The translations under genes and the position numbers were made by a program. A DNA stretch of 48,437 nt from the NCBI GenBank assembly GCA_022822865.1, contig JAJDYJ010000072.1, forward strand, positions 1 to 48,437, read 5' to 3'. Positions 6,809-22,342 of this stretch are shown here, one piece after another (the stretch's first letter is position 1; the number at the start of each line of letters is the position of its first letter). The notes under the pieces are model-generated. The model did not search any database and was not told the origin of the DNA. It worked only from the letters and a program-made list of their open reading frames with translations. Source of the DNA: Pseudomonadales bacterium. Its GTDB lineage: Bacteria > Pseudomonadota > Gammaproteobacteria > Pseudomonadales > Pseudohongiellaceae.

Positions 6809-6825
6809 GTCATGGGTAACGAGCA

Positions 6826-8031
6826 ATGAACTTGACATTTTCGCGATTGACGGGATTGGGCCTTGCGGCGCTGATGGCCGGCGGATGCGCCACACATACG
6901 GTGCGAACGACGAACTACGAGCCGGTCGTCACCGACGCCGAAGCGATTCCGGAAGAGTTTTTAATGGATGTCGGCATCGCGGTGTTCGATCCCGGATTCG
7001 ACGAAATCGATGACGACGACGAGGAAACGACCAACCATCAGATCAGGCTGGCGGAATCCCGGTATGCTCCCTATCTGCTTGCCGAAACCCTGATTCGCTC
7101 CGGCAACTGGGGCATTGTCTATGTTATGCCCAATGACTCCAGTCCGATGGATATCCGCATTGACGGCACGGTCCTGGCGTCGACCGGCGAAAGCATGAAA
7201 ATGCGCGTGCGCGTCAGCGACGCCGCCGGCCGCGAGTGGTACACGCGAGAATACGGCGAAGCCATCAGCCAGTTCGCCTATGAACCGGGCCAGCGGCAGC
7301 AGAACGACCCGTTCCAGGTGATTTACAACTCCATCGCCAACGATCTGCTGGCGTATCGCAAGGCGAATATCGACGAAGAGGATATCGCGCAAATCCGGGC
7401 GGTTTCGGAAATGCGATTCGCCCAGCGCTTCTCTCCCGAAGCATTCGGGGATTACTTGACGACCGACGGCGCGGGCCGCTACCGTCTGGCCTCCCTGCCT
7501 GCGGAAACCGATCCGTCACTGCGTCGAATCCGCGAAATTCGCGAACGCGACTACATGTTCCTCGATACCGTGCAGGAATATTACTCCGGCTTCTCCCGGG
7601 AAATGCGCGAACCATACGATACCTGGCGCGAACAGAGTTACCACGAAACCCTGGCGTTGCGTGAACTCGAAAACAACGCCAAACGCCGTTTCATTCTCGG
7701 CACCGCGGTCGTGCTCGGCGGTCTGGCGGCAGCCGCCAATGGCGGCGATTACGTTACACGGGTCGGAGGCGCAGCCGGTGTCGGCGCCGGCGCCTACCTG
7801 ATCAAGAGCGGGTTTGACAGGCAGGCCGAAGCGCAAATTCACATGCAGGCGCTGGAAGAGATGGGCGCATCGCTCGAAGGAGAAGTCGCGCCAAGGGTGA
7901 TCGGTCTCGAAGACCAGACCATCACCTTGTCCGGAACGGTCGAGGAACAGTACGAACAATGGCGCGAAATTCTGGCCGATCTATACGCCGCCGAGCAGGG
8001 CGAACTGCCCTCCGCGACGATCAGCGACTGA
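6826..8031 (+). CDS. Lipoprotein of unknown function with C-terminal glycine-rich hydrophobic segment
   Basis: A 401-residue protein starting MNLTFSRLTGLGLAALMAGG with lipobox AGGC, hence a lipoprotein. The N-terminal half (GIAVFDPGFDEIDDDDEE, then AESRYAPYLLAETL and GNWGIVYVMPND) looks like an alpha/beta domain. Residues of about 285-330 contain RRFILGTAVVLGGLAAAANG and GGAAGVGAGAYLIKSGFD, a glycine-zipper-like hydrophobic segment that may sit in a membrane. The end (QTITLSGTVEEQYEQWREIL) is helical. It lies 17 bp after the Pro/Gly lipoprotein gene and 77 bp before the TPR gene, so it is probably the second gene of the operon. I do not recognise the family. Confidence 0.75.
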   Translation: MNLTFSRLTGLGLAALMAGGCATHTVRTTNYEPVVTDAEAIPEEFLMDVGIAVFDPGFDEIDDDDEETTNHQIRLAESRYAPYLLAETLIRSGNWGIVYVMPNDSSPMDIRIDGTVLASTGESMKMRVRVSDAAGREWYTREYGEAISQFAYEPGQRQQNDPFQVIYNSIANDLLAYRKANIDEEDIAQIRAVSEMRFAQRFSPEAFGDYLTTDGAGRYRLASLPAETDPSLRRIREIRERDYMFLDTVQEYYSGFSREMREPYDTWREQSYHETLALRELENNAKRRFILGTAVVLGGLAAAANGGDYVTRVGGAAGVGAGAYLIKSGFDRQAEAQIHMQALEEMGASLEGEVAPRVIGLEDQTITLSGTVEEQYEQWREILADLYAAEQGELPSATISD

Positions 8032-8108
8032 ACGCGGACTCGGACGTTCACGCTAGAACCTCAGTTCGATCGACTGATCGGGCGCGGCAAATCGTAGAAT
8101 GACGAAAC

Positions 8109-9632
8109 ATGCCGGAACAGGAAAACGCACATCGATCGCCGGAGCATGCGGATAAACGCGCGGTTCGGGTACACGCGCTGCCGCCTCCCGACTCTCGCCG
8201 GCCGTCGGTCTGGCTGTGGCTGGGCGTCGCCTTATTGCTGATCACGGCCCTGCTGGTCATCTTCGTCCTGCCGGTAATCGTCACCGAGTACGAACTTCCG
8301 CTCGAACTTCGGACCGAAGCGGTCCCGCCGCCGGCGCCGTCCCCCGCCAGATCGCCCGCGGACGGACTTTCCCCATTCGAGGAGGCGATGCTCGCGCGGG
8401 AACGAACGCAGGCGCAGGAGGTGCTTGCCGTCATACTCGAAGCCCAGGACGAACTCGAAGGCTTGCAGGTCGGAGAATGGGCCGGAGAGACCTACGACGC
8501 CGCGCTTGAAGCCGCCCGCGCCGGCGATGAATTCTATCGCGAGCGGGAGTTCGATCAGGCCGACGCTTCGTACCGGGAAGCGGCCGATATTCTCAATGAC
8601 CTGCTTGAGTCCGTGCCGCAAAGACTCGAACAGGCGCTTGCCGCCGGCGAGGACGCGCTGCTGCGAGGCAATCCGGATCGTGCCGGGGAACAATTTCAGG
8701 TTGCTTTACTGTTTGAGCCCGGTAATTCCACCGCTCAGGCCGGTCTCGAACGAACCGCGAACTACGAAGAGTTCGCGGCATTGCTCAACAGTGCCGGCGA
8801 ACTGGCGCGGACAGGAGATCTGCAACGATCGTTGGAGGTCTACCGCGAGGCGGCGGCCCTGGATCCGTCCAATCCGCTGGCGCGGGCGGGGATGGGCGAC
8901 GTGACTGGCCGCATCCGGCAGCAGGAATTTTCCGACGTCATGTCCGCGGGGTTCGCTCTGCTCGAAGCGGGCGACCCGGAGGCGGCCATCGCCGAATTCG
9001 AACGCGCGGCAGGGCTCGGCGTGAACGACGAGCAAGCCAGGACCGCCATCGAACAGATCCGCAACCAGGTCGCTTCGGTCGAAATCGAGCGCTTGCGCGG
9101 CCGAATCGAGGATGCCGAGCGATCCGAACAATGGCAGCAGGCGGTCGACGCCTACGACGAAGTGCTTGCCATCGACGCAAACGTCGTATTCGCCATCAAT
9201 GGGCGCGACTATGCCGCAGGCCGCTCTCAACTCGACAATCTGCTGAGCGAGGCCATCGCCAACCCGTACCGCTTCAACGAAGACGATGTCTACCGGCAGG
9301 CGCTGGACGTCTATTACACCGGTCGCGCGATCAAAAATCCCGGAGCGAAACTGAACGAACAACTCGATGAGCTCGAAGTATTGCTGACCAATTCCCAAAT
9401 TCCGGTGGAAGTACAATTCGCCTCGGACAAGCTTACCAGCGTTACCTTGCTCAGAGTCGCCGAACTCGGCGAGTTCGAGCAGACCAGTCTGGCGTTGAAG
9501 CCTGGCCGCTACGTCGCCCTCGGCAGGCGCATCGGGTACCGCGAAGTTCGCGAGGAGTTCACCGTTGGATACGGCCAGACGCCGGCGCAGGTCGTCGTGC
9601 AATGCGTGGATCGATTGAATAGCAGGCGCTGA
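8109..9632 (+). CDS. Membrane-anchored TPR protein with PEGA-like tail
   Basis: A 507-residue protein. After a cytoplasmic head of about 35 residues comes one transmembrane helix (SVWLWLGVALLLITALLVIF), placing the rest in the periplasm. Residues of about 100-360 form tetratricopeptide-like helical repeats (ALAAGEDALLRGNPDRAGEQ, AALDPSNPLARAGMGDV, GFALLEAGDPEAAIAEFERA). The C-terminal 80 residues (SLALKPGRYVALGRRIGYRE, ending VVVQCVDRL) resemble a PEGA-type beta domain. It is followed after 4 bp by the PEGA/FGE-fold gene, and both share the same topology of short head, one helix and large periplasmic part. They are likely partners in the ExbB/VWA assembly; this is inferred from context. Confidence 0.8.
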   Translation: MPEQENAHRSPEHADKRAVRVHALPPPDSRRPSVWLWLGVALLLITALLVIFVLPVIVTEYELPLELRTEAVPPPAPSPARSPADGLSPFEEAMLARERTQAQEVLAVILEAQDELEGLQVGEWAGETYDAALEAARAGDEFYREREFDQADASYREAADILNDLLESVPQRLEQALAAGEDALLRGNPDRAGEQFQVALLFEPGNSTAQAGLERTANYEEFAALLNSAGELARTGDLQRSLEVYREAAALDPSNPLARAGMGDVTGRIRQQEFSDVMSAGFALLEAGDPEAAIAEFERAAGLGVNDEQARTAIEQIRNQVASVEIERLRGRIEDAERSEQWQQAVDAYDEVLAIDANVVFAINGRDYAAGRSQLDNLLSEAIANPYRFNEDDVYRQALDVYYTGRAIKNPGAKLNEQLDELEVLLTNSQIPVEVQFASDKLTSVTLLRVAELGEFEQTSLALKPGRYVALGRRIGYREVREEFTVGYGQTPAQVVVQCVDRLNSRR

Positions 9633-9636
9633 AGCC

Positions 9637-11706
9637 ATGACGCAACCTGACTCCGATCTCGCCGAACCGATAGTTCCGGTCGGATATACGCCGCCCGGGG
9701 GCGACAGGCTCGGATTCGCTTTTCGCTGGCGCTGGATCTACGCCGCTATCGTCGCCTTTGCCGCCTTGAGCGGATTTGCTATCTGGTTCGTATTGACGGC
9801 CAAATCGGTTTTTGTCGAAGTCGACCCAATCACGGCGGAGATCGAAATCAGCGGCGGCCTGAGCTTCATGATCGGTCCCCGCTACCTGCTTCGCGAAGGT
9901 GAATACCGGCTCCGACTGAGCAATGCGGGCTACCACGACAGCGACATCGTCCTCGCGGTGGGCGAGGAAGCCTCGCAGACCCGGCAATACGTCATGAATC
10001 CACTGCCCGGCAGGATTTCGGTCGGCGCCGGAGGCCTTGAAGGCGCCCGGGTCAGCATCGGCGGCGCGGACATGGGCAATACGCCGGTCATCGACGCCGC
10101 GGTGGAAGCGGGAGACTACGAACTGGTGGTCAGCCTCGACCGTTATCGGGATTTCAGCCGAGAAATCAGCGTTGAAGGCCGCGAGCTCGAGCAACGGTTC
10201 GAAGTCGAACTTCAGCCCGCCTGGGCCGAAGTCAGCCTGGCAAGCGAACCGGCCGGCGCCGAAGTGCTGGTGGACGGCGAATTCGCCGGGCATACGCCGC
10301 TCATCGCCGAAATTCCCGAAGGCGAACGTGCGCTCACGCTGCGACTGCCGGGACATAAGGCTTGGCGGGAAATTCTCGAAGTCACGGCCGGAGAACCGCT
10401 GCGCTTGCCGCGGGTCAAGCTGGAGGCGGCCGATGGACTGGTTTTCGTCCAGTCCAGTCCTGCCGGCGCCAGCGTCACCGTGGACGGCGAATTCAAGGGT
10501 CTGACGCCGCTTGAAATCTCCCTGCCGCCGGAACGGGCGCATGAATTCACGCTGTTCCGTGAAGGCTATAATCTGCATCGTTCAAGACTGGAAACCCGGC
10601 CCGATCAGCAACGGGAAGTGAGAATCGAGCTTGAACCGGTGCTCGTCAGCGTACGCATGCAGGTGGAGCCGGCCGACGCCGAGTTGTATGTGAACGGCAA
10701 TCTCGTCGGCCCGACGGACCGGCCCGTAGATTTGCTGGCGGCGAGTCAGACCATCGAGATTCGCAAAAGCGGCTACGTTCCCTTTACGACCGAGTTTACT
10801 CCGCGTCCCGGCCTCGACCAGATCATCCGCGCCAGTCTGAAGTCGCTCGAACAGGCCCGGCTCGAAAGTATCGCCGAGCTGACCAACGCCGCCGGCCAGA
10901 ACATGAAACTGATCTTCCCAGAGGGAAGAACTTTCACCATGGGCTCGTCGCGCCGGGAACCGGGCCGCAGGCCGAACGAAACCTTGCGCGAAGTGAAACT
11001 CGAACGGCCTTTCTATATCTCCGAAACCGAAACCACCAACGGACAGTTCCGCCGGTTCGAACCGGAACACAGTTCGGGCACGGCGGCGGGCATGACGCTC
11101 GACAACGGCAGCCAACCCGTAGTGCGGGTGTCTTGGCAACAGGCCGCACTGTTTTGCAACTGGCTCAGCGAGCGGGAATCGCTGCCGCCCTTCTACGAAG
11201 TAGCCAATGGACAGGTGGTGGGCTTCGACCCGGAGTCTCACGGCTATCGTCTGCCGACAGAAGCGGAATGGGCATGGGTCGCGCGCGTTGACGCCGACGG
11301 CGGCAGCTTGCGGTATCCCTGGGGCGACAGTCTGCCGCCTCCCCCCCGCGCCGGAAATTTTGCCGATCTCGGCGCCCGTTCGGCGCTGACGCTGGTGATG
11401 CGGGACTACAATGACGGCGAAGTCGTAACGGCGCCGGTGGGTTCGTTCGCGCCCAATCGGCTTGGCCTGTACGACCTGGCCGGCAACGTGGCGGAATGGA
11501 TGCACGATTTCTACGGCTCTGTGGGATTGAGCGGAACCGTACCGACCGACCCGCTGGGGGCGGACACCGGCGAATCCCATTCGATTCGCGGCTCAAGTTG
11601 GACCCATTCTTCAATTACCGAATTGAGGCTTTCCCATCGTGATTTCGGCGCCGAGCCACGTTACGACCTCGGCTTTCGGGTAGCCCGTTACCTTGAGGAG
11701 GAATAG
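9637..11706 (+). CDS. Membrane-anchored PEGA-repeat protein with FGE-sulfatase (SUMF1-like) domain
   Basis: A 689-residue protein. One transmembrane helix at about residues 32-52 (WIYAAIVAFAALSGFAIWFV) anchors it. Then come several PEGA beta repeats to about residue 405, for example SEPAGAEVLVDGEFAGHTPL and SPAGASVTVDGEFKGLTPLE. From about residue 425 there is a formylglycine-generating-enzyme/SUMF1 fold: GRTFTMGSS, VRVSWQQAALFCNWLSE, YRLPTEAEWAWVARV, YPWGD, GLYDLAGNVAEWMHDFYG and LGFRVAR. The Cys pair that makes formylglycine in true FGE is absent; the equivalent stretch reads RGSSWTHSSITELRLSHRD. It is therefore probably a binding or structural module. The gene lies between the TPR anchor (4 bp) and the small exported peptide (3 bp). 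Confidence 0.9.
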   Translation: MTQPDSDLAEPIVPVGYTPPGGDRLGFAFRWRWIYAAIVAFAALSGFAIWFVLTAKSVFVEVDPITAEIEISGGLSFMIGPRYLLREGEYRLRLSNAGYHDSDIVLAVGEEASQTRQYVMNPLPGRISVGAGGLEGARVSIGGADMGNTPVIDAAVEAGDYELVVSLDRYRDFSREISVEGRELEQRFEVELQPAWAEVSLASEPAGAEVLVDGEFAGHTPLIAEIPEGERALTLRLPGHKAWREILEVTAGEPLRLPRVKLEAADGLVFVQSSPAGASVTVDGEFKGLTPLEISLPPERAHEFTLFREGYNLHRSRLETRPDQQREVRIELEPVLVSVRMQVEPADAELYVNGNLVGPTDRPVDLLAASQTIEIRKSGYVPFTTEFTPRPGLDQIIRASLKSLEQARLESIAELTNAAGQNMKLIFPEGRTFTMGSSRREPGRRPNETLREVKLERPFYISETETTNGQFRRFEPEHSSGTAAGMTLDNGSQPVVRVSWQQAALFCNWLSERESLPPFYEVANGQVVGFDPESHGYRLPTEAEWAWVARVDADGGSLRYPWGDSLPPPPRAGNFADLGARSALTLVMRDYNDGEVVTAPVGSFAPNRLGLYDLAGNVAEWMHDFYGSVGLSGTVPTDPLGADTGESHSIRGSSWTHSSITELRLSHRDFGAEPRYDLGFRVARYLEEE

Positions 11707-11709
11707 GTC

Positions 11710-11964
11710 ATGCGAATCCTGATTGCGAGATTGTTGCTGTTCGCTGCCTTGTTGGGGGTCGCCGTCCAGGCGCAAACCCGGCAACAGCAGCAGGACGATC
11801 AGTCCGCTACACAAGGGCAGGAACAGGTTGAGCAGGAAGAAGCCGAACCGCAAGAGGGCGATTCCGGCGACGAGGAAGCCGCCGAAGAAGAGCAATTCGA
11901 GCGCTTCATCCCGACCGAACAGGTCTCGCGCGATCTCGGCGTTTCGTTCCCGGCGGACATTTGA
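11710..11964 (+). CDS. Small exported acidic peptide with conserved-looking C-terminal tail
   Basis: An 84-residue protein with a signal peptide (MRILIARLLLFAALLGVAVQ, cleavage near AQA). A Gln/Glu-rich low-complexity linker of about 40 residues follows, and then a distinct end FERFIPTEQVSRDLGVSFPA plus DI. The final segment is less degenerate than the linker and looks like a recognition tail. From memory, tails of the form F(I/V)P(S/T)E...SFP(V/A)DI occur on small proteins beside ExbB-like genes elsewhere; I cannot verify this here. It sits 3 bp after the PEGA/FGE gene and 24 bp before the ExbB-like gene, so it may be a small accessory subunit of that complex. Confidence 0.7.
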   Translation: MRILIARLLLFAALLGVAVQAQTRQQQQDDQSATQGQEQVEQEEAEPQEGDSGDEEAAEEEQFERFIPTEQVSRDLGVSFPADI

Positions 11965-11988
11965 GATCCCATCGAAGGACAAGGAATC

Positions 11989-12804
11989 ATGAGACAAGGG
12001 CTGCTTTACCAGACGCTTTACCAGTTGGCCGCGTTGATTACCGCGGTAATCGTAGTGCATGCGACCTATGTGGCGATCATCCGCCCGAACGCGGAGATCA
12101 TTCAGGAACAGCAGGCCCAGTTGCAGCAAGCCGATCCGGATTATGTGCCGGATCGTTCGGTGTACATCATCCTGCGCAATGTCGAACAGGAAACCTGCAT
12201 CATTCTCTTTCTCTGGGCGCTGTCGATCATCGGCATGAAGACCGTAACGACGATGCGCGAGCGCGCCCTGCTCGACCGCACGCTGATACCCCTGTCGGAA
12301 GGCATGAGTATCCTGCCGGAAGACGCGCGCAGCTATTCGCGCCCGGTGCAGGCGCTATCGGCAAAGGAACGCGGCCGTCTGCTGCCGCGGGCGCTGCTCG
12401 CCGGATTGCATCGCTTTCAGACCACGCGCGACATCCAGGACGTTTCCGCCACGATAAAGGATACCTGCGAAACCGAGGCCGACCGCCTCGAAACCGAACT
12501 CACGATCGTGCGTTACATCGCCTGGGCCATTCCCTCGATCGGCTTCCTCGGCACGGTGCGCGGCATCGGCACCGCGCTCGGTCAGGCATACCAGGCAGTG
12601 GCCGGAGATATCGTCGGCGTGACCGTGAGCCTCGGCGTGGCCTTCAACTCCACCTTCGTCGCACTGGTGGTCAGCATTCTGCTCATGTTCCTGCTGCATC
12701 AATTGCAATTGCTGCAGGATCGGCTCGTGCTCGACTGCCAGGGTTATTGCGACGACCGCTTGATCCGGCGCCTGCAGGTGCCTGACCGGGAGCACCACGC
12801 ATGA
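11989..12804 (+). CDS. MotA/TolQ/ExbB proton-channel family protein
   Basis: A 271-residue inner-membrane protein. Hydrophobic segments lie at about 9-30 (LAALITAVIVVHATYVAI) and 69-88 (CIILFLWALSIIGMKTV). A charged cytoplasmic stretch follows, then the paired helices diagnostic of the family: YIAWAIPSIGFLGTVRGIG near 175-195 and VSLGVAFNSTFVALVVSIL near 212-235. The LGTV and AFNST threonine regions match the ion-path helices of ExbB, TolQ and MotA, which form pentamers around a TolR/ExbD/MotB dimer. No separate ExbD or TolR gene is present; the two VWA genes downstream carry ExbD-like N-terminal helices and are the likely partners. Its last 4 bp overlap the next gene. Confidence 0.88.
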   Translation: MRQGLLYQTLYQLAALITAVIVVHATYVAIIRPNAEIIQEQQAQLQQADPDYVPDRSVYIILRNVEQETCIILFLWALSIIGMKTVTTMRERALLDRTLIPLSEGMSILPEDARSYSRPVQALSAKERGRLLPRALLAGLHRFQTTRDIQDVSATIKDTCETEADRLETELTIVRYIAWAIPSIGFLGTVRGIGTALGQAYQAVAGDIVGVTVSLGVAFNSTFVALVVSILLMFLLHQLQLLQDRLVLDCQGYCDDRLIRRLQVPDREHHA

Positions 12805-14132
12805 GCCTGAAGGTTATCGAGTTGAACGATGTCTCGTTACAGATCGGAGACGCGGCCGGCGTCGCCGCCGCCGGTCCCGGATTCGCCTTGCTCGAAGGCA
12901 GGGAAGCGATACTCGGCGCGGAGGCGGAAGAGCGGCATCGAATCCATCCAACGAGCAGTTACGACAAATTCTGGCACGAGCTGGACATGGAGCCGCTACG
13001 CATTGACGGCCGCATTCGCCATCACGCCGATCTCGCCTACAGCCAGTTGCTGGAACTCGCGCGCAAGGCGCAAATCGACAAAGAAGTCCTGCTTGCGGTC
13101 CCCGGTCATTACAGCAACCGACAGTTGGGGCTGCTGCTCGGAATCGTGGGTCAATGTCCTTTCCGTGTCACCGGCATGGTCGATTCCGCGCTCGCGGCAG
13201 CGGAGAACGCGTCGAGCGAGGAGCGCATCGTATACGCCGGCCTGCACCTGCACCAGGTGCTGTTGACCCGCCTGATCAGAAAAGACGGCGAGTTGGCCGT
13301 CGACAATGTCGTGCCGATTCCGCAACTGGGCCGGCAGCAACTGCTCGATGTGCTGATGCGGATCGCCAACGACGCCTTCATTCGGCAATGCCGCTTCAAT
13401 CCGCAACACGAAGCGGCTTCCGAGCAGGAACTGTATTCCATGCTGGCGGCCTGGATCGGCGAAAAGGGCGATGAACAGGGCAATCTGGAAATGGAACTGA
13501 AAGCCGGCACCATGACCCATACGGCGAAACTGCCGCGGGACCAGTTGCTCGCGGGATTGCGGAAATTCTACGACAAACTGCTGCTTTCGCTGCGCCCGCT
13601 GACCGAACCGCCCGGCGCCGGCATCCTGCTCGATCATCGGCTGGCCCTGCTGCCGGGAGCGGTCGCCGCCCTTGGCGAGGCCGGGCCGCTGCGGGTGGCG
13701 CGGCCCGAAGCCGTGACCGAAGCCTGCCTGCGCCATCACGAGCTGATCGCAGGAGGCGACGGCGTACATCGGATTCGCGCCTTGCCCGACCTCGATTCTC
13801 CGGGTGAAGTCGCGGGGAAGCGCGCCGGTCGCAATGCGCCGACCCACGCGCTGTTCCGCAATCGGGCGATGCCGGTTGCCGACCTGACGCTTGTCAACAA
13901 CCTGAACGGCAGCGGCGACAATGCGCTGGAGTTCGATCTGCCCGGCCCCTCCACGACCCTGGGCAGAATTCTGAGAAAACAGTCCGAAGTCCTGCTCGAC
14001 TGCGGCGAAATCGAATTCCGGCTCAACGACGCGCCGGTAAAAGGCAGCCACCTGCTCAAACTCGGAGACCGTATACGGTTCCCCGAAGTTTCCGACGAAC
14101 TGCTGATGATCGAGGTGAGCGATGGCCGCTAA
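12801..14132 (+). CDS. Actin-like ATPase-fold (ASKHA-like) protein with FHA-like C-terminus
   Basis: A 443-residue cytoplasmic protein with no signal or membrane segment. The N-terminal part has an Hsp70/actin-like layout: a first beta-hairpin region IELNDVSLQIGDAAG, then KEVLLAVPGHYSNRQLGLLL followed by VTGMVDSALAAAE. This parallels the DnaK pattern of a VP-x-x-(F/Y) strand, a helix and a second phosphate region. The usual DxG of phosphate-1 is not obvious, so ATP hydrolysis is uncertain. The last 80 residues (TTLGRILRKQSEVLLDCGEI, ending DRIRFPE) resemble an FHA-like beta sandwich. It overlaps the ExbB gene by 4 bp and the first VWA gene by 11 bp, implying coupled translation. It may be the cytoplasmic regulator of the motor. 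Confidence 0.6.
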   Translation: MSLKVIELNDVSLQIGDAAGVAAAGPGFALLEGREAILGAEAEERHRIHPTSSYDKFWHELDMEPLRIDGRIRHHADLAYSQLLELARKAQIDKEVLLAVPGHYSNRQLGLLLGIVGQCPFRVTGMVDSALAAAENASSEERIVYAGLHLHQVLLTRLIRKDGELAVDNVVPIPQLGRQQLLDVLMRIANDAFIRQCRFNPQHEAASEQELYSMLAAWIGEKGDEQGNLEMELKAGTMTHTAKLPRDQLLAGLRKFYDKLLLSLRPLTEPPGAGILLDHRLALLPGAVAALGEAGPLRVARPEAVTEACLRHHELIAGGDGVHRIRALPDLDSPGEVAGKRAGRNAPTHALFRNRAMPVADLTLVNNLNGSGDNALEFDLPGPSTTLGRILRKQSEVLLDCGEIEFRLNDAPVKGSHLLKLGDRIRFPEVSDELLMIEVSDGR

Positions 14133-15225
14133 CGGCAACAGGCGCAGACGCGGCGTATCGCCGCTCAGTCTGGCGTTCCTCGATGTCATGTTCTGCGGCT
14201 TCGGCGCGGTGATTCTGATCTTTCTGATCCTGGACCATACGGCCAACGTATCGGACGTGGAAAGCGATCCCGATCTGGAGCTGGAGCTCCATCTGCTCGA
14301 GCGCGAGATCACCGAAGGCATGGAAGGCAACCTCGAACTGCGCAACCTGATAGCGAGCCTCGATGAAGAATACGAAGAGGGCGAGGTCGAAGCCGAAGAA
14401 CTGCGCGAGCAGGTGGAGCTGTTGATGCGCGAACTGGAGTTGCTCAACAGCACCGGGGCCGACAACGATCAACTGCGCGATCGCCTGCTGACGGAAGTCG
14501 AGACGCTGGAGGAACAGATCGAGGATATGAGGGCGCTTGAGTTCGAGCAATCCGGCAACAACGTGCGTCAATACCTGGGCGACGGCAACCGGCAATACCT
14601 GTCGGGCATGTTCCTCGGAGGCCAGCGCATCCTGATTCTCATGGACGCCTCGGCCAGCATGCTCGACGAGACCCTGGTCAACATCATCCGCACGCGCAAT
14701 ATGCCCGACGAGCGCAAGGTGCTATCGCCGAAATGGCGCCGGGTGCTGCGCGCGGCGGACTGGATCACGACGCAGATTCCGGTTACCAGCCGCTACCAGA
14801 TCTGGAGCTTCAACACGAGAGTCACTCCGGCGCTGGAAGGCGACCCGCAGGAATGGCTCGAAGTCGCCGATCGGGACCGGCTCGGGGAAGCCGTCGACAA
14901 TCTGCGCGCAACCGTGCCCGAGGACGGCACCAATCTGGAGCAGGTTTTCCGGCTCGCGGCCGGAATGTCGCCGCCGCCGGACAATATTTTCCTGATTACC
15001 GACGGTCTGCCGACGGTCGATCGGCCGGGGCCCGCGAGAGGCCTCGTGACGCCCCGGGACCGGATCGAATTGTTCGAGAACGCGATCCGCGAACTTCCGC
15101 CCAATGTTCCGGTCAATATTATATTGATGCCGCTCGAAGGCGATCCGAGCGCGGCGGCGGCGTACTGGCAACTGGCGATGTCCACCAGAGGCTCGTTCCT
15201 GTCGCCGTCGAGAGACTGGCCGTGA
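14122..15225 (+). CDS. VWA-domain protein with ExbD/TolR-like N-terminal helix (VWA-1)
   Basis: A 367-residue protein. A basic head (NRRRRG) precedes one transmembrane helix, PLSLAFLDVMFCGFGAVILI, with an Asp at residue 21 at its start, like the proton-carrying Asp of ExbD (D25), TolR (D23) and MotB (D32). Residues of about 48-140 are strongly acidic and coiled-coil-like (ELELHLLEREITEGMEG, EEVEAEELREQVELL). A von Willebrand A domain follows with a full MIDAS: DASAS at 175-179, DGTNLE and FLITDGLP. The VWA domain lies in the periplasm and should bind a metal-bridged ligand. The gene overlaps the actin-like gene by 11 bp and is followed after 22 bp by a paralogue. Confidence 0.85.
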   Translation: MAANGNRRRRGVSPLSLAFLDVMFCGFGAVILIFLILDHTANVSDVESDPDLELELHLLEREITEGMEGNLELRNLIASLDEEYEEGEVEAEELREQVELLMRELELLNSTGADNDQLRDRLLTEVETLEEQIEDMRALEFEQSGNNVRQYLGDGNRQYLSGMFLGGQRILILMDASASMLDETLVNIIRTRNMPDERKVLSPKWRRVLRAADWITTQIPVTSRYQIWSFNTRVTPALEGDPQEWLEVADRDRLGEAVDNLRATVPEDGTNLEQVFRLAAGMSPPPDNIFLITDGLPTVDRPGPARGLVTPRDRIELFENAIRELPPNVPVNIILMPLEGDPSAAAAYWQLAMSTRGSFLSPSRDWP

Positions 15226-15247
15226 GACGCGTCGGACGGGGAACTCG

Positions 15248-16252
15248 ATGAGACGCAGAAACCGCGAAACCGAGCAGTTCAGCATATCCTTTCTGGATGT
15301 GGCGTCCTGTGGATTCGGCGCTATCATCATCTTGCTGATGATTACCAAGTCGGCCGCGCCCACCAATGAATTTTTCACCGACACATTGCCCACCGGCGTG
15401 ATCCAGGAATTGACGCGGGAACTTTTCGCGATTCGCTCGCAAACCACGGAATTGCAGGAAGAGTTGAACGCCAGCCAGGAACGCAACGCCGACCAGGAGG
15501 AGTTGATCGGCAGTCTGGACAGCAGGAGAGAGGCGCTGGTTGCCGAATACGATCTGGCCCGGGACCAGGGCGACGCGACCTCCGAGGAAATCGGCGAACT
15601 CATGCTCGCCCGGCAGACGCTGACAGAGGAAATGGAGCGATTGTTCGAGGAAACCCAGGTCCGGCAGAGCAGTTATATCGGCGGTGTGCCGGTGGACAGC
15701 GAATACGTCATTTTCGTAATCGACACCTCCGGCAGCATGTACGAAAACGCCTGGGGCAGAATGCTCGAAACGATCGAGGAAACCCTGGACGTCTATCCCG
15801 AAGTGAAAGGCATCCAGATAATGAACGACATGGGCGACTACATGTTCGATTCTTTCCGCGGCGAATGGATTCCCGACACGCCCTCGCGGCGCGTGCAGAT
15901 TCTCTCCACCTTGCGCACCTGGGATCCTCCGTACAGCAACAGCAGTCCGGTGGAAGGCGTCACCGCGGCGATCGGCTCCTTTTATTCCCCGGACAGGAAA
16001 ATCAGTGTCTACGTGCTGGGCGACGATTTTCAGCAGGGCGGTTCGATCGAACAGGTATTGCGCACGATCGACCGGATCAACGTGGAAGACGCCAACGGAG
16101 ATCGGCTCGTGCGCATCCATGGCATCGGTTTTCCGGTAATATTGAGTGGTTCCGCCCGGTTTCAGCAAAGCGGCTATCGCTATGCCTCGCTGATGCGGGA
16201 ACTGACCCAGCGGAACGGTGGTACATTTGTGGGCTTGAACGACTTCAGGTAA
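15248..16252 (+). CDS. VWA-domain protein with ExbD/TolR-like N-terminal helix (VWA-2)
   Basis: A 334-residue paralogue of the preceding protein. It has the same architecture: a basic head, a helix FSISFLDVASCGFGAIIILL with Asp at residue 17, a coiled-coil stalk (ELQEELNASQERNADQEELI, LMLARQTLTEEMERLFEE) and a VWA domain. The first MIDAS motif is canonical (DTSGSM from residue 159). The later positions are less typical (NSSPVEG and VLGDD instead of DGT and ITDG), so metal binding may be altered. Both paralogues keep the Asp and the CGFGA motif in the helix, which suggests they form a heterodimer inside the ExbB-like pentamer. It is 22 bp after VWA-1 and 17 bp before a lipoprotein gene. Confidence 0.85.
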   Translation: MRRRNRETEQFSISFLDVASCGFGAIIILLMITKSAAPTNEFFTDTLPTGVIQELTRELFAIRSQTTELQEELNASQERNADQEELIGSLDSRREALVAEYDLARDQGDATSEEIGELMLARQTLTEEMERLFEETQVRQSSYIGGVPVDSEYVIFVIDTSGSMYENAWGRMLETIEETLDVYPEVKGIQIMNDMGDYMFDSFRGEWIPDTPSRRVQILSTLRTWDPPYSNSSPVEGVTAAIGSFYSPDRKISVYVLGDDFQQGGSIEQVLRTIDRINVEDANGDRLVRIHGIGFPVILSGSARFQQSGYRYASLMRELTQRNGGTFVGLNDFR

Positions 16253-16269
16253 ACGGTAATGAGACGGTA

Positions 16270-16878
16270 ATGAAGAGCTCCGCCCTATCGATTTGCAGAA
16301 TATTGTTGCCGGCATTGCTGCTCAGCGCCTGCGGCGCCAGCAGCGTGGTCATCAGCGGCAGTTTCCCCACGCCCAATATCGGCAGGTTGCCGATTTCGCT
16401 GGCCGTGGTCTACGACGACAATCTGCAGGACTTCACGTACACGGAATACAGCGAAACCGGCCAGGAGGAATACTACATCCAGAGCGGCCAATCCCATGTC
16501 CAGCTTTTCAACGCCGTGCTGCCAGCGATGTTCGACGACGTGACATTCGTGGATAACGTGGAAGCCGCGGCGGGCTCGGGCGTAGACGCGGTCTTCGTAC
16601 CCAATATCGAGGAATTCCAGCTCGCCCTGCCGGCCAAGACGCGGCTCGACGTATACGAAGTCTGGATCAAGTACAACATGCGCCTGCTGACGGCGGAAGG
16701 CGATTACCTCGCCGACTGGGAGTTGACGTCCTATGGCAAGACGCCGACGGAAACTTTCCTGACCACCGAATCCGCCATCAACGACGCGGCGGTCGTGGCG
16801 TTGCGGGATCTCGCTTCCACTTTTGCGCTCAGTTTCGCGCGAGTGCCCGAAATCAGCGCCTGGCTGGCGAACCGATGA
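16270..16878 (+). CDS. Lipoprotein of unknown function
   Basis: A 202-residue protein. The ATG at 16270 gives a signal peptide with lipobox LLSAC (ILLPALLLSACGASS). The frame is open upstream into the VWA gene, but only this start makes an export signal. The mature protein contains LPISLAVVYDDNLQDFTYTE, GVDAVFVPNIEEFQL, a helical EVWIKYNMRLL segment and a C-terminal INDAAVVALRDLASTFALSF. It resembles small outer-membrane lipoproteins with a mixed alpha/beta domain, but I do not assign a family. It sits between VWA-2 (17 bp) and another lipoprotein gene (19 bp) in the same run, so it is probably the outer-membrane side of the system. Confidence 0.75.
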   Translation: MKSSALSICRILLPALLLSACGASSVVISGSFPTPNIGRLPISLAVVYDDNLQDFTYTEYSETGQEEYYIQSGQSHVQLFNAVLPAMFDDVTFVDNVEAAAGSGVDAVFVPNIEEFQLALPAKTRLDVYEVWIKYNMRLLTAEGDYLADWELTSYGKTPTETFLTTESAINDAAVVALRDLASTFALSFARVPEISAWLANR

Positions 16879-16897
16879 AGCCGACGGAGAAAATCCG

Positions 16898-17563
16898 ATG
16901 AAACATGCAGGCGGCGTTACAGGCAAACTGCTCCCCCTTGTCCTGATGCTGTGCGCCGGGTGCACCAGCACCACGGTCGACGAATTCCGCCAGGGGGAAA
17001 CCGGCATAGCGAGCCACGAAACCGTGGTGATTCTCGGCCGGCGCCAGGCCAGCGCCCGCGAAACGAGCGGTGATTTCGTCGAATGCGTGGGAGACCGTAT
17101 CGCCCAAGGCGCGAACGGCCTCAGCGTCGTTCCCGAACAGGAGTTTCTGGACGCCATGTTCCCTTGGTTCGAGCCGCGCACTGCGCCAATGCGGCCCGAG
17201 CATCTTGCGCGACTCATGGTGGAGGAACAGGTGGCCTTTACGATGCGAGATTTTGGCGTGCGTTACATCATCTGGCTCGACGGTTATACCGAAAGGCTGA
17301 ACCAGGTCGGGTCGATCTCTTGTACCGTTGCGCCTGGCGGCGCCGGCTGTTTTGGCTATGGTTCCTGGGAAGACGACGCGAGTTTCAACGCGGAGATATG
17401 GGACGTGGAAAGTTACAATGGCGTCGGCCAGATCAGCACTGACGCCACCGGGCAATCCTTCATGCCAGCCATCGTGATCCCGATTCCGCTGATCGCGCGG
17501 GTCGAGGCCAATGCCTGCCAGCGGCTCGGCGACCAGTTGAAGAGTTTCGTATTGGGTGGTTGA
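16898..17563 (+). CDS. Lipoprotein of unknown function
   Basis: A 221-residue protein. The ATG at 16898, preceded by CGGAGA, gives MKHAGGVTGKLLPLVLMLCA with lipobox CAGC. The mature part has four more cysteines (FVECVGD, SISCTV, AGCFGYG, EANACQRLGD), which could form disulfides in the periplasm. It begins ETVVILGRRQASARETSGDF, followed by LSVVPEQEFLDAMFPWFEP, and later VRYIIWLDGYTERLNQVGSI, a pattern seen in lipoproteins with a nucleoside-hydrolase-like or CsgG-like fold; that similarity is weak. It lies 19 bp after another lipoprotein gene and 14 bp before the M48 protease gene. Confidence 0.75.
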   Translation: MKHAGGVTGKLLPLVLMLCAGCTSTTVDEFRQGETGIASHETVVILGRRQASARETSGDFVECVGDRIAQGANGLSVVPEQEFLDAMFPWFEPRTAPMRPEHLARLMVEEQVAFTMRDFGVRYIIWLDGYTERLNQVGSISCTVAPGGAGCFGYGSWEDDASFNAEIWDVESYNGVGQISTDATGQSFMPAIVIPIPLIARVEANACQRLGDQLKSFVLGG

Positions 17564-17577
17564 CGGAGGTCGTCAGC

Positions 17578-19074
17578 ATGAACAGATTTCTTGTCTACAT
17601 CAGGGATATCGCGGCCCTGCGCTGGCCGCTGTTCGCATTTTGCCTTGCCGCATTGACGCTACTCGACTCCTGCGCGGTGAATCCGGCGACCGGTACGCCC
17701 AATCTCGTACTCATGTCCGGCGACCGGGAAAAGGAGATCGGCCTCGAAGAGCACAACAAACTTATGGAGACCGCGATCGTCTACGATGACGACGCCTTGA
17801 GCGATTATGTGACCGAGATCGGCAATCGTATCGCCCAGGTTGGCGACCGGCCCGACCTGGACTATCGGTTCTTCGTAATCGACAGCCCGGCAATCAACGC
17901 TTTTGCGCTACCCGGCGGCTATATCTACGTCAACCGGGGCCTCATCACCTACCTCAATTCCGAAGCCGAACTCGCCGCGGTGCTGGCGCACGAGATCGCG
18001 CACGTCACTGCGCGCCACAGCGTACAACAGCATGCGCGCGGCAGGCTGGCGCAGACGGCGGCGCAGGTGGGCGGCCTCGCCACCGCCGTGGTGACGGGCA
18101 GCGGCTACGTGGGCTCGCAGATTTCCCAGGTCGCCTCGATCTGGGCCAGGGCCGGTCTCAGCGGCTACGGCCGAGAGCACGAACTCGAAGCAGACCAGTT
18201 CGGAGCGGAATACCTTCGCGAAGCCGGCTACGATCCCATGGCCATGATCGACACGCTTACGGTGCTGAAGAACCAGGAAGATTTCCGGCGCCTGACAACC
18301 AACCAGGGCGGAGGCTATCACGGATTGTTCGCTTCCCATCCCCGCAACGACCAGCGTTTGCAGCAGATTGTCGCCCAGGTGCGGAACTTCGATCCACAAG
18401 CCGCGTACGGCAGTAACGACAGCCGTTTCCGCGAAGTCACCGAAGGCCTGATTGTCGGTGAGAGCCGTATGGCGAGAACCAACGAGACTCGCAATCGCTA
18501 CTATCAGCCCGAACTCGGCTACACCGTCGTTTTTCCTGACGAATGGAACGTGACCGAGACCATGACGACCGCGACCGCCACCGGTCCCGAAATGGGTTCG
18601 CTCAAGATCGAGGCGATGCGGCTGCAAGGCGGCGAACCGCCGCGGGACTTCCTGGCGGGTCGCCTCGAAGGCGGCGTGCTCGAGAAATCCGAAGGCCTCG
18701 ATCAGTTCCGCTTGCTCGGTCATACGGGGCTCGCGCTGAATCCCGCGACCGGGCGCAGGGAGCGGGTCGCCGTGCTGTATTTCGGTCCGCGCGCCTATCT
18801 GTTCAGGGGTGAGTTGCCCGCCGCCGGCGCGGAAGAGGCCGACGCCTTGCTGCTTGAGTCGATCAAGAGTTTCCGGCCGATCGAACGCGGCGAACTGGCC
18901 CTGGCCGAGGAATTGCGCATCCGCTATGTCGTGGCGGATGAGAATTTCGATTTCGCCGTCGCGGCGCGCGATTCCAAGATCAGCGAATATCCGGAAGAGA
19001 CCCTGCGCCTGCTCAATGGCTATTACCCCATCGGCAGCCCGGAACCCGGCGAATGGATAAAGCTGGTCGAATAA
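17578..19074 (+). CDS. M48-family periplasmic metalloprotease lipoprotein (YggG/BepA-like)
   Basis: A 498-residue protein. The ATG at 17578 has GGAGG about 8 nt upstream. The signal peptide ends at a Cys followed by AVNPATGTPNLVLMSG, the usual N-terminus of M48 lipoproteins. The zinc site is complete: HEIAH at 138-142 and the third ligand in EHELEADQFGAEYL. SHPRND follows, as in the family. After the peptidase domain there is an extra region of about 230 residues (YTVVFPDEWNVTETMTT, then AVLYFGPRAYLFRGEL) and an end with a LysM-like PEPGEWIKLVE. Related proteases clear misfolded outer-membrane or LPS-assembly proteins. The 3' end overlaps waaF by 22 bp. Confidence 0.9.
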   Translation: MNRFLVYIRDIAALRWPLFAFCLAALTLLDSCAVNPATGTPNLVLMSGDREKEIGLEEHNKLMETAIVYDDDALSDYVTEIGNRIAQVGDRPDLDYRFFVIDSPAINAFALPGGYIYVNRGLITYLNSEAELAAVLAHEIAHVTARHSVQQHARGRLAQTAAQVGGLATAVVTGSGYVGSQISQVASIWARAGLSGYGREHELEADQFGAEYLREAGYDPMAMIDTLTVLKNQEDFRRLTTNQGGGYHGLFASHPRNDQRLQQIVAQVRNFDPQAAYGSNDSRFREVTEGLIVGESRMARTNETRNRYYQPELGYTVVFPDEWNVTETMTTATATGPEMGSLKIEAMRLQGGEPPRDFLAGRLEGGVLEKSEGLDQFRLLGHTGLALNPATGRRERVAVLYFGPRAYLFRGELPAAGAEEADALLLESIKSFRPIERGELALAEELRIRYVVADENFDFAVAARDSKISEYPEETLRLLNGYYPIGSPEPGEWIKLVE

Positions 19075-20171
19075 TCGCCAGCGCAGCCGTTCACGGCAAT
19101 CCAGGGAAGTACCTCATCGTCGGCCCGTCCTGGATCGGCGACACGGTCATGGCCCAGTCGCTGTTCAGACAACTGAAGGTCAATCATCCGCACAACGAAA
19201 TCTCCGTCATGGCGCCGTCCTGGACGAGGCCGCTGCTCGACCGCATGCCCGAGGTGTCCGAAAGTCTCGATTCGCCCTTTCGGCACGGCGAGCTGAACTG
19301 GCGGCTGCGCCGGCGAATCGGACGGGATTTGCGCCGACGGGGCTTCTCCCATGCTATCGTTCTGCCCAATTCCTTCAAGTCGGCCCTGGTTCCGTTTCAC
19401 GCCGGAATTCCCGAGCGGATCGGCTGGCGCGGAGAATGGCGCGGCCCGCTGTTGACCGATTGCCGCCGTCTCGACAAGCAGGAGTTTCCCCTCATGGCGC
19501 AACGTTTCGTCGCGCTCGCGTTTCCCGCCGACAGTCCGCCGCCTGCGTGGCGCGAAGAAGAGTGGCCGAAACCTGAACTGCAAGCGAGGCCGGCCGAACT
19601 CGAACTTGCCTGCCTGCGGCTGGAGCTCAATCGGGGAGAACCGATCCTGGCGCTTTGCCCGGGCGCCGAATACGGACCATCGAAGCAATGGCCCGCCGCC
19701 GGCCATATCGAACTGGCGAATCTGTATCTGCGCCGCGACTGGCAGGTTTGGCTGTTCGGTTCGAACAACGACCGCGCGATAGCCGCCGAAATTGCCGCGG
19801 GCCTGGAGCCCGGTCTGACGACGAAGTGCCGCGATCTTACCGGGCGCACGAGTCTCGCCGAGGCCATCGACTTGCTGTCCGCGGCCACGGTCGTGGTATC
19901 GAACGATTCGGGCCTGATGCATGTAGCGGCCGCGCTGAACAAACCCCTGGCCGCGATATACGGTTCGAGTTCGCCCGAATTCACGCCTCCCCTTTCCGGC
20001 AAGGTAGAATTGCTTGCCACCGGCATCGAATGCCAGCCCTGTTACCGGCGTGAATGCCCTTACGGACATCTGCGCTGCCTGACCGGGATGCAACCCGCGA
20101 CAGTGGCCGGCGCCATCGACAGGCTGCGGGAAGAAAGCTCCGGGGAAGCGGCGAATTGCGGATTCTCATAG
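19053..20171 (+). CDS. waaF: ADP-heptose:LPS heptosyltransferase II
   Basis: A 372-residue GT9 glycosyltransferase that adds the second L-glycero-D-manno-heptose to the LPS inner core at the inner membrane's cytoplasmic face. The N-terminal motif YLIVGPSWIGDTVMAQSLF is typical of WaaF. The donor-binding half has ALCPGAEYGPSKQWPAAGHI, DLTGRTSLAEAIDLLSAA and VVSNDSGLMHVAAALNKPLA, all conserved. C-terminal CQPCYRRECPYGHLRC is the usual cysteine-rich end. Its start lies inside the M48 gene (22 bp overlap) and its end overlaps waaC by 16 bp, so LPS core genes are translationally linked to the envelope run upstream. The same waaF-waaC-waaG cluster occurs in Pseudomonas. Confidence 0.95.
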   Translation: MDKAGRIIASAAVHGNPGKYLIVGPSWIGDTVMAQSLFRQLKVNHPHNEISVMAPSWTRPLLDRMPEVSESLDSPFRHGELNWRLRRRIGRDLRRRGFSHAIVLPNSFKSALVPFHAGIPERIGWRGEWRGPLLTDCRRLDKQEFPLMAQRFVALAFPADSPPPAWREEEWPKPELQARPAELELACLRLELNRGEPILALCPGAEYGPSKQWPAAGHIELANLYLRRDWQVWLFGSNNDRAIAAEIAAGLEPGLTTKCRDLTGRTSLAEAIDLLSAATVVVSNDSGLMHVAAALNKPLAAIYGSSSPEFTPPLSGKVELLATGIECQPCYRRECPYGHLRCLTGMQPATVAGAIDRLREESSGEAANCGFS

Positions 20172-21226
20172 TCAAGGTCTCTTCGCTTGGAGACATCATT
20201 CACACCCTGCCGGCCGTTACCGATGCCGCCGGGGCGCGCAAGGACGTGGTGTTCGACTGGGTCGTCGAAGAGAACTTCGTCGAAGTGCCCGGCTGGCATC
20301 CCGCCGTCGAGAAGGTGATTCCCGTCTCGATCCGCCGCTGGCGCCGCAACTTCCTGAAATCCTGGTTCAATCGTGAAGTTCGCTCTTTCCGGCAACGCTT
20401 GCGGGCCGAACACTACGATCTCGTGATCGATGCCCAGGGACTGATCAAGAGCGGCATCATCAGCCGCATGTCCAAGGGGCTGACCATCGGCCTGAGCAAC
20501 CAGACCGCGCGGGAACCGCTGTCATCCCTGTTCTACAATCAATCCTACAAAGTGCCCTGGGACCGCCACGCGGTCGAGCGGGTGCGGCAACTGTTCTCGC
20601 GGGCGCTGAATTATCGTTATAACAGGCAACTGGTCGATTACGGCATCGACATCTCGAGGATCAGCCCGGAACCGGCGCCGGCCAATTCCGGCTCCGTGCT
20701 GTTCCTCCATGGCACGACCTGGGCCACCAAGCACTGGCCGGACGCCTATTGGCGCTCGCTCGGCGAAATCGCGGCCGATGCCGGTTATCGGATCCTGCTC
20801 CCCTGGGGCGATGAGCGGGACAGGCGCCGCGCGGAACTGATCGCCGGCGGCAATGGCCGGGCGACGGTGCTGGAAAGGCAGACGCTGTCCGGTCTGGCCC
20901 GGCACATGCTCAAGGCCGAAGGCGTGATCGCCGTCGATACGGGCCTCGGTCACCTGGCGGCCGCGCTCGGCAAGCCGGCGCTGACCCTGTACGGGCCGAC
21001 CAATCCGGATCTGACCGGCACCTTCGGTCCGCGCCAGCTCCATCTGACCTCGGACATCGACTGCGCGCCTTGCATGAAGAAAAACTGCGCCTATCAGGGA
21101 CCGCCGGTTTTCGACCCGGCGCAAGACGACTCTTTCGAAGTGCGGCCGCCCTGCTTCGCCGCCAACAAGCCCGTCGAGGTCTGGCGGCAGTTCGAACAAT
21201 TGATCGATGGGCGGGCCGCCCGATGA
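20156..21226 (+). CDS. waaC: ADP-heptose:LPS heptosyltransferase I
   Basis: A 356-residue GT9 enzyme that transfers the first heptose onto Kdo2-lipid A. I place the start at the TTG at 20156, with GGGGAA upstream, because it gives RILIVKVSSLGDIIHTLPAV at the extreme N-terminus, exactly as in WaaC. Longer readings from 20054 add an unrelated stretch inside waaF. Other family marks are YDLVIDAQGLIKSGIISR, LFLHGTTWATKHWPDAYWRS, GVIAVDTGLGHLAAALGKPA and LYGPTNPDLTGTFG. It overlaps waaF by 16 bp and waaG by 4 bp (ATGA), indicating translational coupling. Confidence 0.95.
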   Translation: MRILIVKVSSLGDIIHTLPAVTDAAGARKDVVFDWVVEENFVEVPGWHPAVEKVIPVSIRRWRRNFLKSWFNREVRSFRQRLRAEHYDLVIDAQGLIKSGIISRMSKGLTIGLSNQTAREPLSSLFYNQSYKVPWDRHAVERVRQLFSRALNYRYNRQLVDYGIDISRISPEPAPANSGSVLFLHGTTWATKHWPDAYWRSLGEIAADAGYRILLPWGDERDRRRAELIAGGNGRATVLERQTLSGLARHMLKAEGVIAVDTGLGHLAAALGKPALTLYGPTNPDLTGTFGPRQLHLTSDIDCAPCMKKNCAYQGPPVFDPAQDDSFEVRPPCFAANKPVEVWRQFEQLIDGRAAR

Positions 21227-22335
21227 AGCTGGCCTTCCTGATCTATTCCTGGTTTCCCCATGGCGGCCAGCAACGCGACATGATGCGGCTGGCGCGGGAA
21301 TGCCTGGACCGCGGCCATGAAGTGATCGCTTACGCCATGCGCTGGCGCGGTCCGAGACCGGAAGGTCTGCGCATCGAACCGGTAGAGGCGCGCGGATTCG
21401 GCCGGCTGGCCCGGTACCGGAACTACACCGAACAGGTGCGAACGGCTCTTGCGGCGGAACCTGTCGACCTCGTGATCGGCTTCAACAGGATGCCTCTTCT
21501 CGACGTGTACTTCGCCGCGGATTCGTGTTTCGCCGAAAAGGCGCGAACCCAACGCGGCGCCTACTACCGCTTCACGCCCAGATTCAGGCATTTTCGCGCC
21601 TACGAAAAAGCCGTGTTCGGCGACGGCAGCACAACCAGGGCGCTGGTGCTGTCGGAGCGGCAGCGGGACGAGTACGTTCGGCATTATCCCGGCTGCGCCG
21701 GGCGCTTGCATGTGCTGCCGCCGGGATTGTCGGCGGACCGGAAGATTTCCGCCCGCGACCCGGAAACGCGCCGGCGCTGCCGCGAGGAACTGTCGCTTTT
21801 CGGGGACGAAAAACTGATATTGCAGATCGGCTCGGGCTTCCGCATCAAGGGTGTCGACCGCTCCCTGCGCGCCGTCGCCTCGCTGCCCGAACCGATCGCT
21901 AAAAATTGCCGCTACCTGCTGGTGGGTGCGGGCCGGTCCGCTCCAGTGTTTGCCCTGGCGCGCAAGCTCGGCATACGTGACCGGGTCAGGGTGCTGGCGG
22001 GACAGGACAATGTGGCGCGGCTGTACCAGGCGGCGGACCTGCTCTTGCATCCGGCGTATTCGGAAAGCGCGGGCCATGTGCTGCTCGAAGCGACCGTGGC
22101 GGGCCTCCCGGTGCTGACCACGGCCACTTGCGGCTATGCCCCGCATATTCTCAAGGCCGGTTCGGGCCAGGTGTGCGGAGAGCCTTTCAGTCAAGAAGAA
22201 CTGAACGGCCGGCTGCTGGAAATGCTGGGTCAACTCGACAGCGCGCCATGGAGCGAAAACGGTTTGTGCTATGGACAAAACGGAGAACTGTATAACATGG
22301 CCGAAGCGGCTGTAGATTTTCTCGAACGGCAATAG
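21223..22335 (+). CDS. waaG: LPS core glucosyltransferase I-type GT4 glycosyltransferase
   Basis: A 370-residue GT4 enzyme, close to the length of E. coli and Pseudomonas WaaG. The ATG at 21223 overlaps the waaC stop as ATGA and gives MKLAFLIYSWFPHGGQQRDM, the family N-terminus. Later motifs include VIGFNRMPLLDVYFAADSCF, LSERQRDEYVRHYPGC, LHVLPPGLS and the donor site LLLHPAYSESAGHVLLEATV, with the E-x7-E pattern of GT4 enzymes. It adds the first hexose to HepII of the LPS core. It is followed after 7 bp by the carbamoyltransferase gene, the same functional neighbourhood as in Pseudomonas aeruginosa. Confidence 0.9.
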   Translation: MKLAFLIYSWFPHGGQQRDMMRLARECLDRGHEVIAYAMRWRGPRPEGLRIEPVEARGFGRLARYRNYTEQVRTALAAEPVDLVIGFNRMPLLDVYFAADSCFAEKARTQRGAYYRFTPRFRHFRAYEKAVFGDGSTTRALVLSERQRDEYVRHYPGCAGRLHVLPPGLSADRKISARDPETRRRCREELSLFGDEKLILQIGSGFRIKGVDRSLRAVASLPEPIAKNCRYLLVGAGRSAPVFALARKLGIRDRVRVLAGQDNVARLYQAADLLLHPAYSESAGHVLLEATVAGLPVLTTATCGYAPHILKAGSGQVCGEPFSQEELNGRLLEMLGQLDSAPWSENGLCYGQNGELYNMAEAAVDFLERQ

Positions 22336-22342
22336 AACAAAA

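Follow-up and report, generated by a model that had tools for sequence, protein, structure and literature searches.

The window analysed here, which is the whole 48,437-nt stretch of DNA from a Pseudomonadales bacterium (Pseudohongiellaceae; assembly GCA_022822865.1, contig JAJDYJ010000072.1, positions 1 to 48,437), contains an operon of 12 genes, all on the + strand (about 5636–19074), which encodes an ExbB/TolQ-like channel subunit (11989–12804) and two unlike membrane proteins, VWA1 (14122–15225) and VWA2 (15248–16252), each joining a pore-type helix to a von Willebrand factor type A (VWA) domain. We consider it likely that the three proteins form a proton-driven 5:2 motor with a VWA1–VWA2 axle, working within a trans-envelope machine. 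The motor core belongs to a kind that was predicted in 2025; the new information is its operon context. An earlier prediction made on this DNA (hereafter the original prediction) had correctly placed the three genes and their strand; it had left out the gene for a 443-residue protein (12801–14132) and the wider operon, and its interpretation, plausible but already published, is partly supported.

The channel protein and its VWA neighbours

The ExbB-like protein contains a MotA_ExbB domain (PF01618, E 1.1e-14, 54.7 bits for a cut-off of 22.9). Three candidate pore threonines, T189, T212 and T222, are each identical in 86/86 relatives; T189 and T222 we take, from a by-eye reading of the GFLGTVRGI pattern, to be the pore threonines of ExbB/TolQ. 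Compared with PDB chains, the ExbB alignment gave no match at E 0.001.

Both VWA proteins have the architecture initially described for them, that is, a basic head, a helix with the FLDV and CGFGA motifs (FLDVMFCGFGA in VWA1, FLDVASCGFGA in VWA2) that carries D21 and D17, respectively, a coiled coil and a VWA domain with a metal-ion-dependent adhesion site (MIDAS)-type motif. In each protein, four Lys/Arg precede the hydrophobic stretch, and the Asp lies two residues inside it. The same offset of 2 is found in two of the four ExbD-type proteins of the genome (it is 5 in the TolR-like third, and the fourth, wrongly trimmed, is excluded), so that the ExbD-like placement of the Asp stands as far as position is concerned. 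The original prediction depended on conservation of the two Asp residues in homologues: D21 is invariant in VWA1 (100/100) and D17 in VWA2 (97/97), also in sequences whose CGFGA has degenerated to SGLGA or SSAFAA. The DxSxS residues of both heads (D175, S177 and S179 in VWA1; D159, S161 and S163 in VWA2) are invariant in the same sets, as are D294 of VWA1 and S232 and D259 of VWA2; these Asp and Thr counts leave out loci L001, L002, L028 and L029, sequences outside the length limits and identical strings, and a gene fetched twice with different starts may be counted twice.

The two helices closely resemble each other, the hhalign comparison of the VWA1 and VWA2 helix profiles giving a probability of 99.7. 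By sequence, VWA1 matches Pfam VWA_2 (1.4e-5) with 26.1 bits, just below the 27-bit cut-off, and the Pfam VWA match of VWA2 is weak (0.015). The AlphaFold2 model of VWA2 (37 sequences) displays a helix at residues 7–34, a second, 87-residue helix at 49–135 and an alpha/beta domain from about residue 153; a Foldseek search with this domain returns VWA structures, the best being BatB (3ibs, 1.6e-6). Sequence searches of the PDB yielded only weak unrelated matches for VWA2 alone and, for VWA1, insignificant matches to coiled-coil and 14-3-3 chains.

As originally claimed, the operon contains an ExbB-type protein without an ordinary ExbD: PF02472 has no match on the window contig up to E 10, and VWA1 and VWA2 do not match it at E 1. 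Above cut-off, the genome as a whole contains six genes of the MotA_ExbB family and four of the ExbD family; channel and ExbD-type genes lie together on contigs C31, C90 and C55, and contig C98 has an ExbD gene and no PF01618 gene above cut-off. Two scans extended this to relatives. The stronger, with PF02472 across 27 carrier genomes, detected the family in 27/27, on the operon's contig in only three: in G044 the distance is about 43 kb to the channel gene and about 37 kb to the first gene of the operon, and in G364 and G024 it is about 145 kb and about 720 kb, respectively, to the VWA genes. The other, over 97 operon loci, found no ExbD with a model built from the four ExbD sequences of the genome, one of them trimmed at the wrong Met and the building sequences serving as positive controls. 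No separate ExbD was thus found paired with the channel in these relatives, in agreement with the original prediction, and an ordinary ExbD hidden in the operon was rejected.

Elsewhere in the same genome, on contig C66 (L175:3560–4560, - strand), an ExbB-like protein stands beside a DUF2149 protein (PF09919, 1e-27), a candidate channel–partner pair without ExbD.

Gene order and distribution

A scan of named genomes gave at least 570 matching stretches (one gene can give two), of which the best 80 loci were kept, so that the named loci lean to near kin; 47 of the 80 have full flanks. ExbB, VWA1, VWA2, the two lipoproteins that follow them (l1 and l2) and an M48 protease are encoded in 47/47 of these loci, the 443-residue protein in 46, the two upstream lipoproteins (lA and lB), a TPR protein and a protein with PEGA repeats and a formylglycine-generating enzyme (FGE)-like domain in 45 each, and a small protein in 32. 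The gene order of the window is kept in 45/47, the other two loci (L088 and L112) each having an extra, out-of-place match. ExbB precedes VWA1 in 71/71 of the named loci that extend at least 3 kb upstream of VWA2, most of them with the 443-residue gene in between, and VWA2 follows VWA1 in every listed locus having VWA1 (L112 also has an extra VWA2-like match before VWA1). In L083 and L084, the lA–lB–TPR–FGE block was not detected upstream of ExbB within reach, and the part from ExbB to the M48 gene is intact.

Six genomes of another class carry a more compact version, in which ExbB abuts VWA1 and VWA1 abuts VWA2 in 6/6, with no 443-residue gene between. The genes for lA, lB, TPR and PEGA-FGE lie upstream in 5/6, the sixth locus (L179, genome G445) having no FGE in the 1.6 kb of remaining contig; whether l1, l2 and the M48 gene are missing can be judged well for only three of these loci (L180, L181 and L183). 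This gene content suggests a seven-gene core made of two lipoproteins, the TPR protein, the PEGA protein with its cysteine-less FGE-like domain, ExbB, VWA1 and VWA2, beyond which the operon holds the genes for a cytosolic Hsp70-like/FHA-like protein (the 443-residue protein), the two further lipoproteins, the M48 protease and the small protein. The co-occurrence of ExbB and VWA genes across genomes, which had been proposed as a check, is thereby borne out.

Within the genus, 34 of the 37 genomes match, own genome included (G017 shows VWA1 only, its contig ending there), and the three that do not are 72–85% complete; 3/21 other genomes of the order match. In a class-wide sample, the VWA2 profile hit 25/276 genomes (E 0.001), with 17 falling below 1e-80, and in a phylum-wide sample the VWA1 profile hit 10/299, nine below 1e-56; the weak matches left over seem to be coiled-coil or partial ones. 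Among 72,556 plasmid records, none matches VWA2.

Some loci deserve separate mention. Named isolates with the operon include Pseudomaricurvus alcaniphilus (L100), Seongchinamella sediminis (L109) and Parahaliea mediterranea (L112). L069 and L098 are titled Klebsiella pneumoniae; they are contigs of metagenome-assembled genomes whose operon is like that of Pseudomonadales-type gammaproteobacteria, and the labels look wrong. Two proteins carry a VWA2-type head outside the operon setting. One (L028:8174–8926, - strand), on a contig other than that of the same genome's operon, stands alone and is, by eye, a lipoprotein; its VWA2-type head (44% over 205 residues) comes without a pore-type helix. 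In the other (L029:7066–8799, + strand), a BlaR1-type M56 peptidase (PF05569, 5.5e-42) lies in one open frame with a VWA2-type head (41% over 192 residues), which thus appears to sit on another membrane anchor.

A recently predicted motor and the competing arrangements

According to the original prediction, no stator of this architecture had been described, which has been wrong since June 2025: Williams-Jones et al. (Mol Biol Evol, PMC12204202) report paired unlike 'TPH-vWA' genes that tightly co-occur with tolQ homologues, with no tolR/exbD. In section 8 and the legend of Fig. 4 of that paper, the pore helix bears an Asp and AlphaFold3 models put the Asp pair inside the Thr ring of the channel, and the passages found on function call the TPH-vWA proteins putative force transducers. 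The present operon shares with that motor (Fig. 4c,d) the unlike VWA pair beside a tolQ-like gene, the lack of tolR/exbD, the conserved Asp in a pore-type helix and the Thr ring; for its surroundings, no counterpart is described in section 8 or in the other passages found, and the word 'sulfatase' is absent from the main text. Titles and abstract starts in the open-licence PMC literature offered no description of the operon, the main text of a 2025 stator phylogeny (PMC12505986) contains neither VWA nor von Willebrand, and a 2026 Ton/Tol review (PMC12905483), in the text retrieved, cites PMC12204202 and has no vWA.

In the motor that we favor, the ExbB-like protein would form an inner-membrane pentamer with one VWA1 helix and one VWA2 helix in its pore, in the manner of ExbD, TolR or MotB helices. 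Protons would pass D21, D17 and the channel threonines, turning the helix pair relative to the pentamer, and the long coiled coil, whose 87 residues in the VWA2 model would span about 13 nm as an unbroken helix, would carry the motion across the periplasm. There, the VWA heads may grip partners via their metal-site residues, most likely the lipoproteins of the operon (lB first) and the PEGA/FGE scaffold, and the Hsp70-like/FHA-like protein would probably be a cytosolic platform or regulator. The MotA_ExbB channel domain and the N-in single helix with an early Asp are common to ExbBD and TolQR; here, however, VWA heads on a long coiled coil take the place of the ExbD/TolR periplasmic domain, and a PF02472 partner is missing. 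If this motor exists, it gives many gammaproteobacteria, and some bacteria of another class, an ion-driven device that acts through two adhesion-type heads in place of a peptidoglycan-binding domain or a TonB partner.

Several observations weigh against such a motor or soften the case for it. Profile comparison of the two VWA helices and the four ExbD helices of the genome gave no significant similarity (hhalign probability 3.5 and 3.4; the test used just four ExbD rows over 40 residues and had no positive control); it is consequently pattern and context that make the helices ExbD-like. One metal-site residue of VWA1, T270, varies, being kept in 91/100 sequences. The VWA2 model is of modest confidence, with a mean predicted local distance difference test score (pLDDT) of 73.0 and block means of 42–80 along the stalk. 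In a mirror-tree analysis, the distance matrices of all nine genes compared correlate at 0.86–0.95, so that co-inheritance does not single out an ExbB–VWA contact. Kinship to the Idiomarina proteins of PMC12204202 looks likely from gene arrangement and description, by which, rather than by sequence, the match was made; Idiomarina is in no title among the 80 best loci, kept from at least 570 matching stretches. Finally, the VWA1–VWA2 heterodimer is inferred, the pairing being suggested by the adjacency of the two genes and by the unlike pairs of the published family.

These points leave room for other arrangements. The VWA proteins could sit at the channel edge as TonB/TolA-like transducers, with an ExbD encoded elsewhere filling the pore. 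The genome does encode four ExbD-type proteins, one of them on a contig (C98) that has no channel gene above cut-off, passages of PMC12204202 propose that another family of VWA transducers binds the motor edge, and the non-significant helix–ExbD comparison agrees with such a placement. We nevertheless regard it as unlikely: an Asp invariant in both proteins would be odd in an edge helix, neither helix has, by eye, the SHLS motif given for edge binders in PMC12204202, and the nearest same-contig ExbD in the 27 genomes is the one about 43 kb from the channel gene. Slightly less credible still are two separate homodimeric motors sharing one channel protein. Each VWA protein does have, on its own, an invariant Asp of the sort that a pore helix should carry, but the two genes are adjacent in each named locus whose length allows both to be seen, and the corresponding family is, in the passages found of PMC12204202, predominantly one of unlike pairs.

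It is improbable that the complex has a motor fold but conducts nothing and serves as a sensor or scaffold, in which the VWA pair would signal envelope strain to the Hsp70-like/FHA-like protein. Such a role would suit the weakly FHA-like end of the cytosolic protein (0.016) and an FGE-like domain devoid of its usual cysteines; it fits poorly with full conservation of the Asp and Thr residues expected for proton transfer and with the absence of the 443-residue gene between ExbB and VWA1 in all six genomes of the other class. Phage defence of the Zorya type, whose ZorAB likewise combines a MotA-like protein with a single-pass partner, or another kind of defence, was rejected as scarcely conceivable, since the PADLOC matches are weak (channel to ZorA2, 0.011; VWA2 to ZorB1, 0.023) with no further Zorya match among seven proteins scanned, Pfam finds in VWA1 and VWA2 no OmpA-type domain such as ZorB has, the matches in 34 of 37 genomes of the genus suit a resident trait, and VWA2 has no plasmid match.

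Partner proteins of the operon

The operon is predicted to encode four, perhaps five, lipoproteins; in none of the motifs counted is the Cys followed by Asp. The first, lA (5636–6808), is of low complexity, rich in Gly/Pro/Ser, with a likely lipobox, LAAC, at residue 27 (by eye); a loose pattern detects a lipobox-like motif in 60/64 orthologues. In lB (6826–8031), the lipobox reads AGGC, the motif is present in 68/75 and Cys21 is invariant in a 21-sequence alignment; a Pfam search of its 61-member family returned no convincing family, and its alignment matched nothing in the PDB at the limits set. Downstream of VWA2, l1 (16270–16878, start by eye; lipobox LSAC) has the motif in 101/108 and an invariant Cys in 18 aligned sequences, with no Pfam family of weight. 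Its neighbour l2 (16898–17563; CAGC and start both by eye) has the motif in 84/106 orthologues, the window copy being missed by the pattern, and an invariant Cys in 17 aligned sequences; the Pfam scan gave no family. The possible fifth lipoprotein is the BepA-like M48 metalloprotease (17578–19074, start by eye; M48_BAM_BepA 4.9e-41, below the NCBIfam cut-off), for which 57/83 orthologues have a lipobox-like motif and the atypical LDSC of the window copy was missed by the pattern.

Two further proteins of the core are membrane-anchored. The TPR protein (8109–9632; TPR_11 1.3e-9) has a transmembrane segment at residues 40–58, and the PEGA-FGE protein (9637–11706; transmembrane segment 34–52) combines four PEGA repeats (1.1e-47) with an FGE/GldK-like domain (FGE-sulfatase, 3.2e-39). 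Formylglycine-generating enzymes have their catalytic cysteines near a C-terminal RGGSW-type motif. In 79/79 sequences of the operon's protein, no Cys occurs at 650–680, which is where those cysteines were sought, so that at least one domain encoded by the operon seems, as judged from sequence, to lack catalytic activity. The next gene (11710–11964) encodes a small acidic protein whose N-terminal segment is hydrophobic.

The 443-residue protein (12801–14132) adopts an Hsp70 nucleotide-binding-domain-like fold in its predicted model and ends in the weakly FHA-like region mentioned above; a Pfam scan of its family gave nothing convincing. Hsp70 proteins bind phosphate through loops such as DLGTT and DLGGGT. 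In the alignment rows shown, ELND-like and QLHQ-like stretches are seen, by eye, in their place.

Since four or five of the twelve genes look like lipoprotein genes and the protease is BepA-like, our guess is that the system has a task in outer-membrane or lipoprotein upkeep. Going further, and more tentatively than for the motor itself, we propose that the operon could possibly encode a complete, undescribed trans-envelope machine, in which the heads of a proton-driven VWA1–VWA2 axle would grip and release the operon's outer-membrane lipoproteins against a periplasmic scaffold formed by the PEGA repeats and the cysteine-less FGE domain, under a cytosolic Hsp70-like/FHA-like regulator. A comparable pairing exists in type IX secretion and gliding, where the 5:2-type GldLM motor is accompanied by GldK, a protein of FGE fold. 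GldK is the best NCBIfam match of the PEGA-FGE protein (1.5e-30), although its 106.9 bits lie far below the 350-bit cut-off; here, moreover, PEGA repeats accompany the FGE domain and its anchor is predicted to be in the inner membrane, and neither GldL nor GldM is among the NCBIfam matches of the eight proteins scanned. The gliding motor of Myxococcus, AglRQS, works with the VWA adhesin CglB and thus also links a TolQR-type motor to a VWA protein, which is separate there and fused to the pore-type helix here. If the complete machine is real, these bacteria have a further envelope force system beside Ton and Tol. The operon in any case supplies concrete partners, namely the two core lipoproteins, the TPR protein and the PEGA/FGE scaffold, to which most named gammaproteobacterial loci add the Hsp70-like/FHA-like protein, two more lipoproteins and the M48 protease.

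Beyond the operon, a glycosyltransferase family 9-like neighbour, which no locus from L074 on contains, is present in many loci up to L073; in the window, genes for a glycosyltransferase of family 9 and a carbamoyltransferase occupy positions 19053–24091, downstream of the M48 gene.

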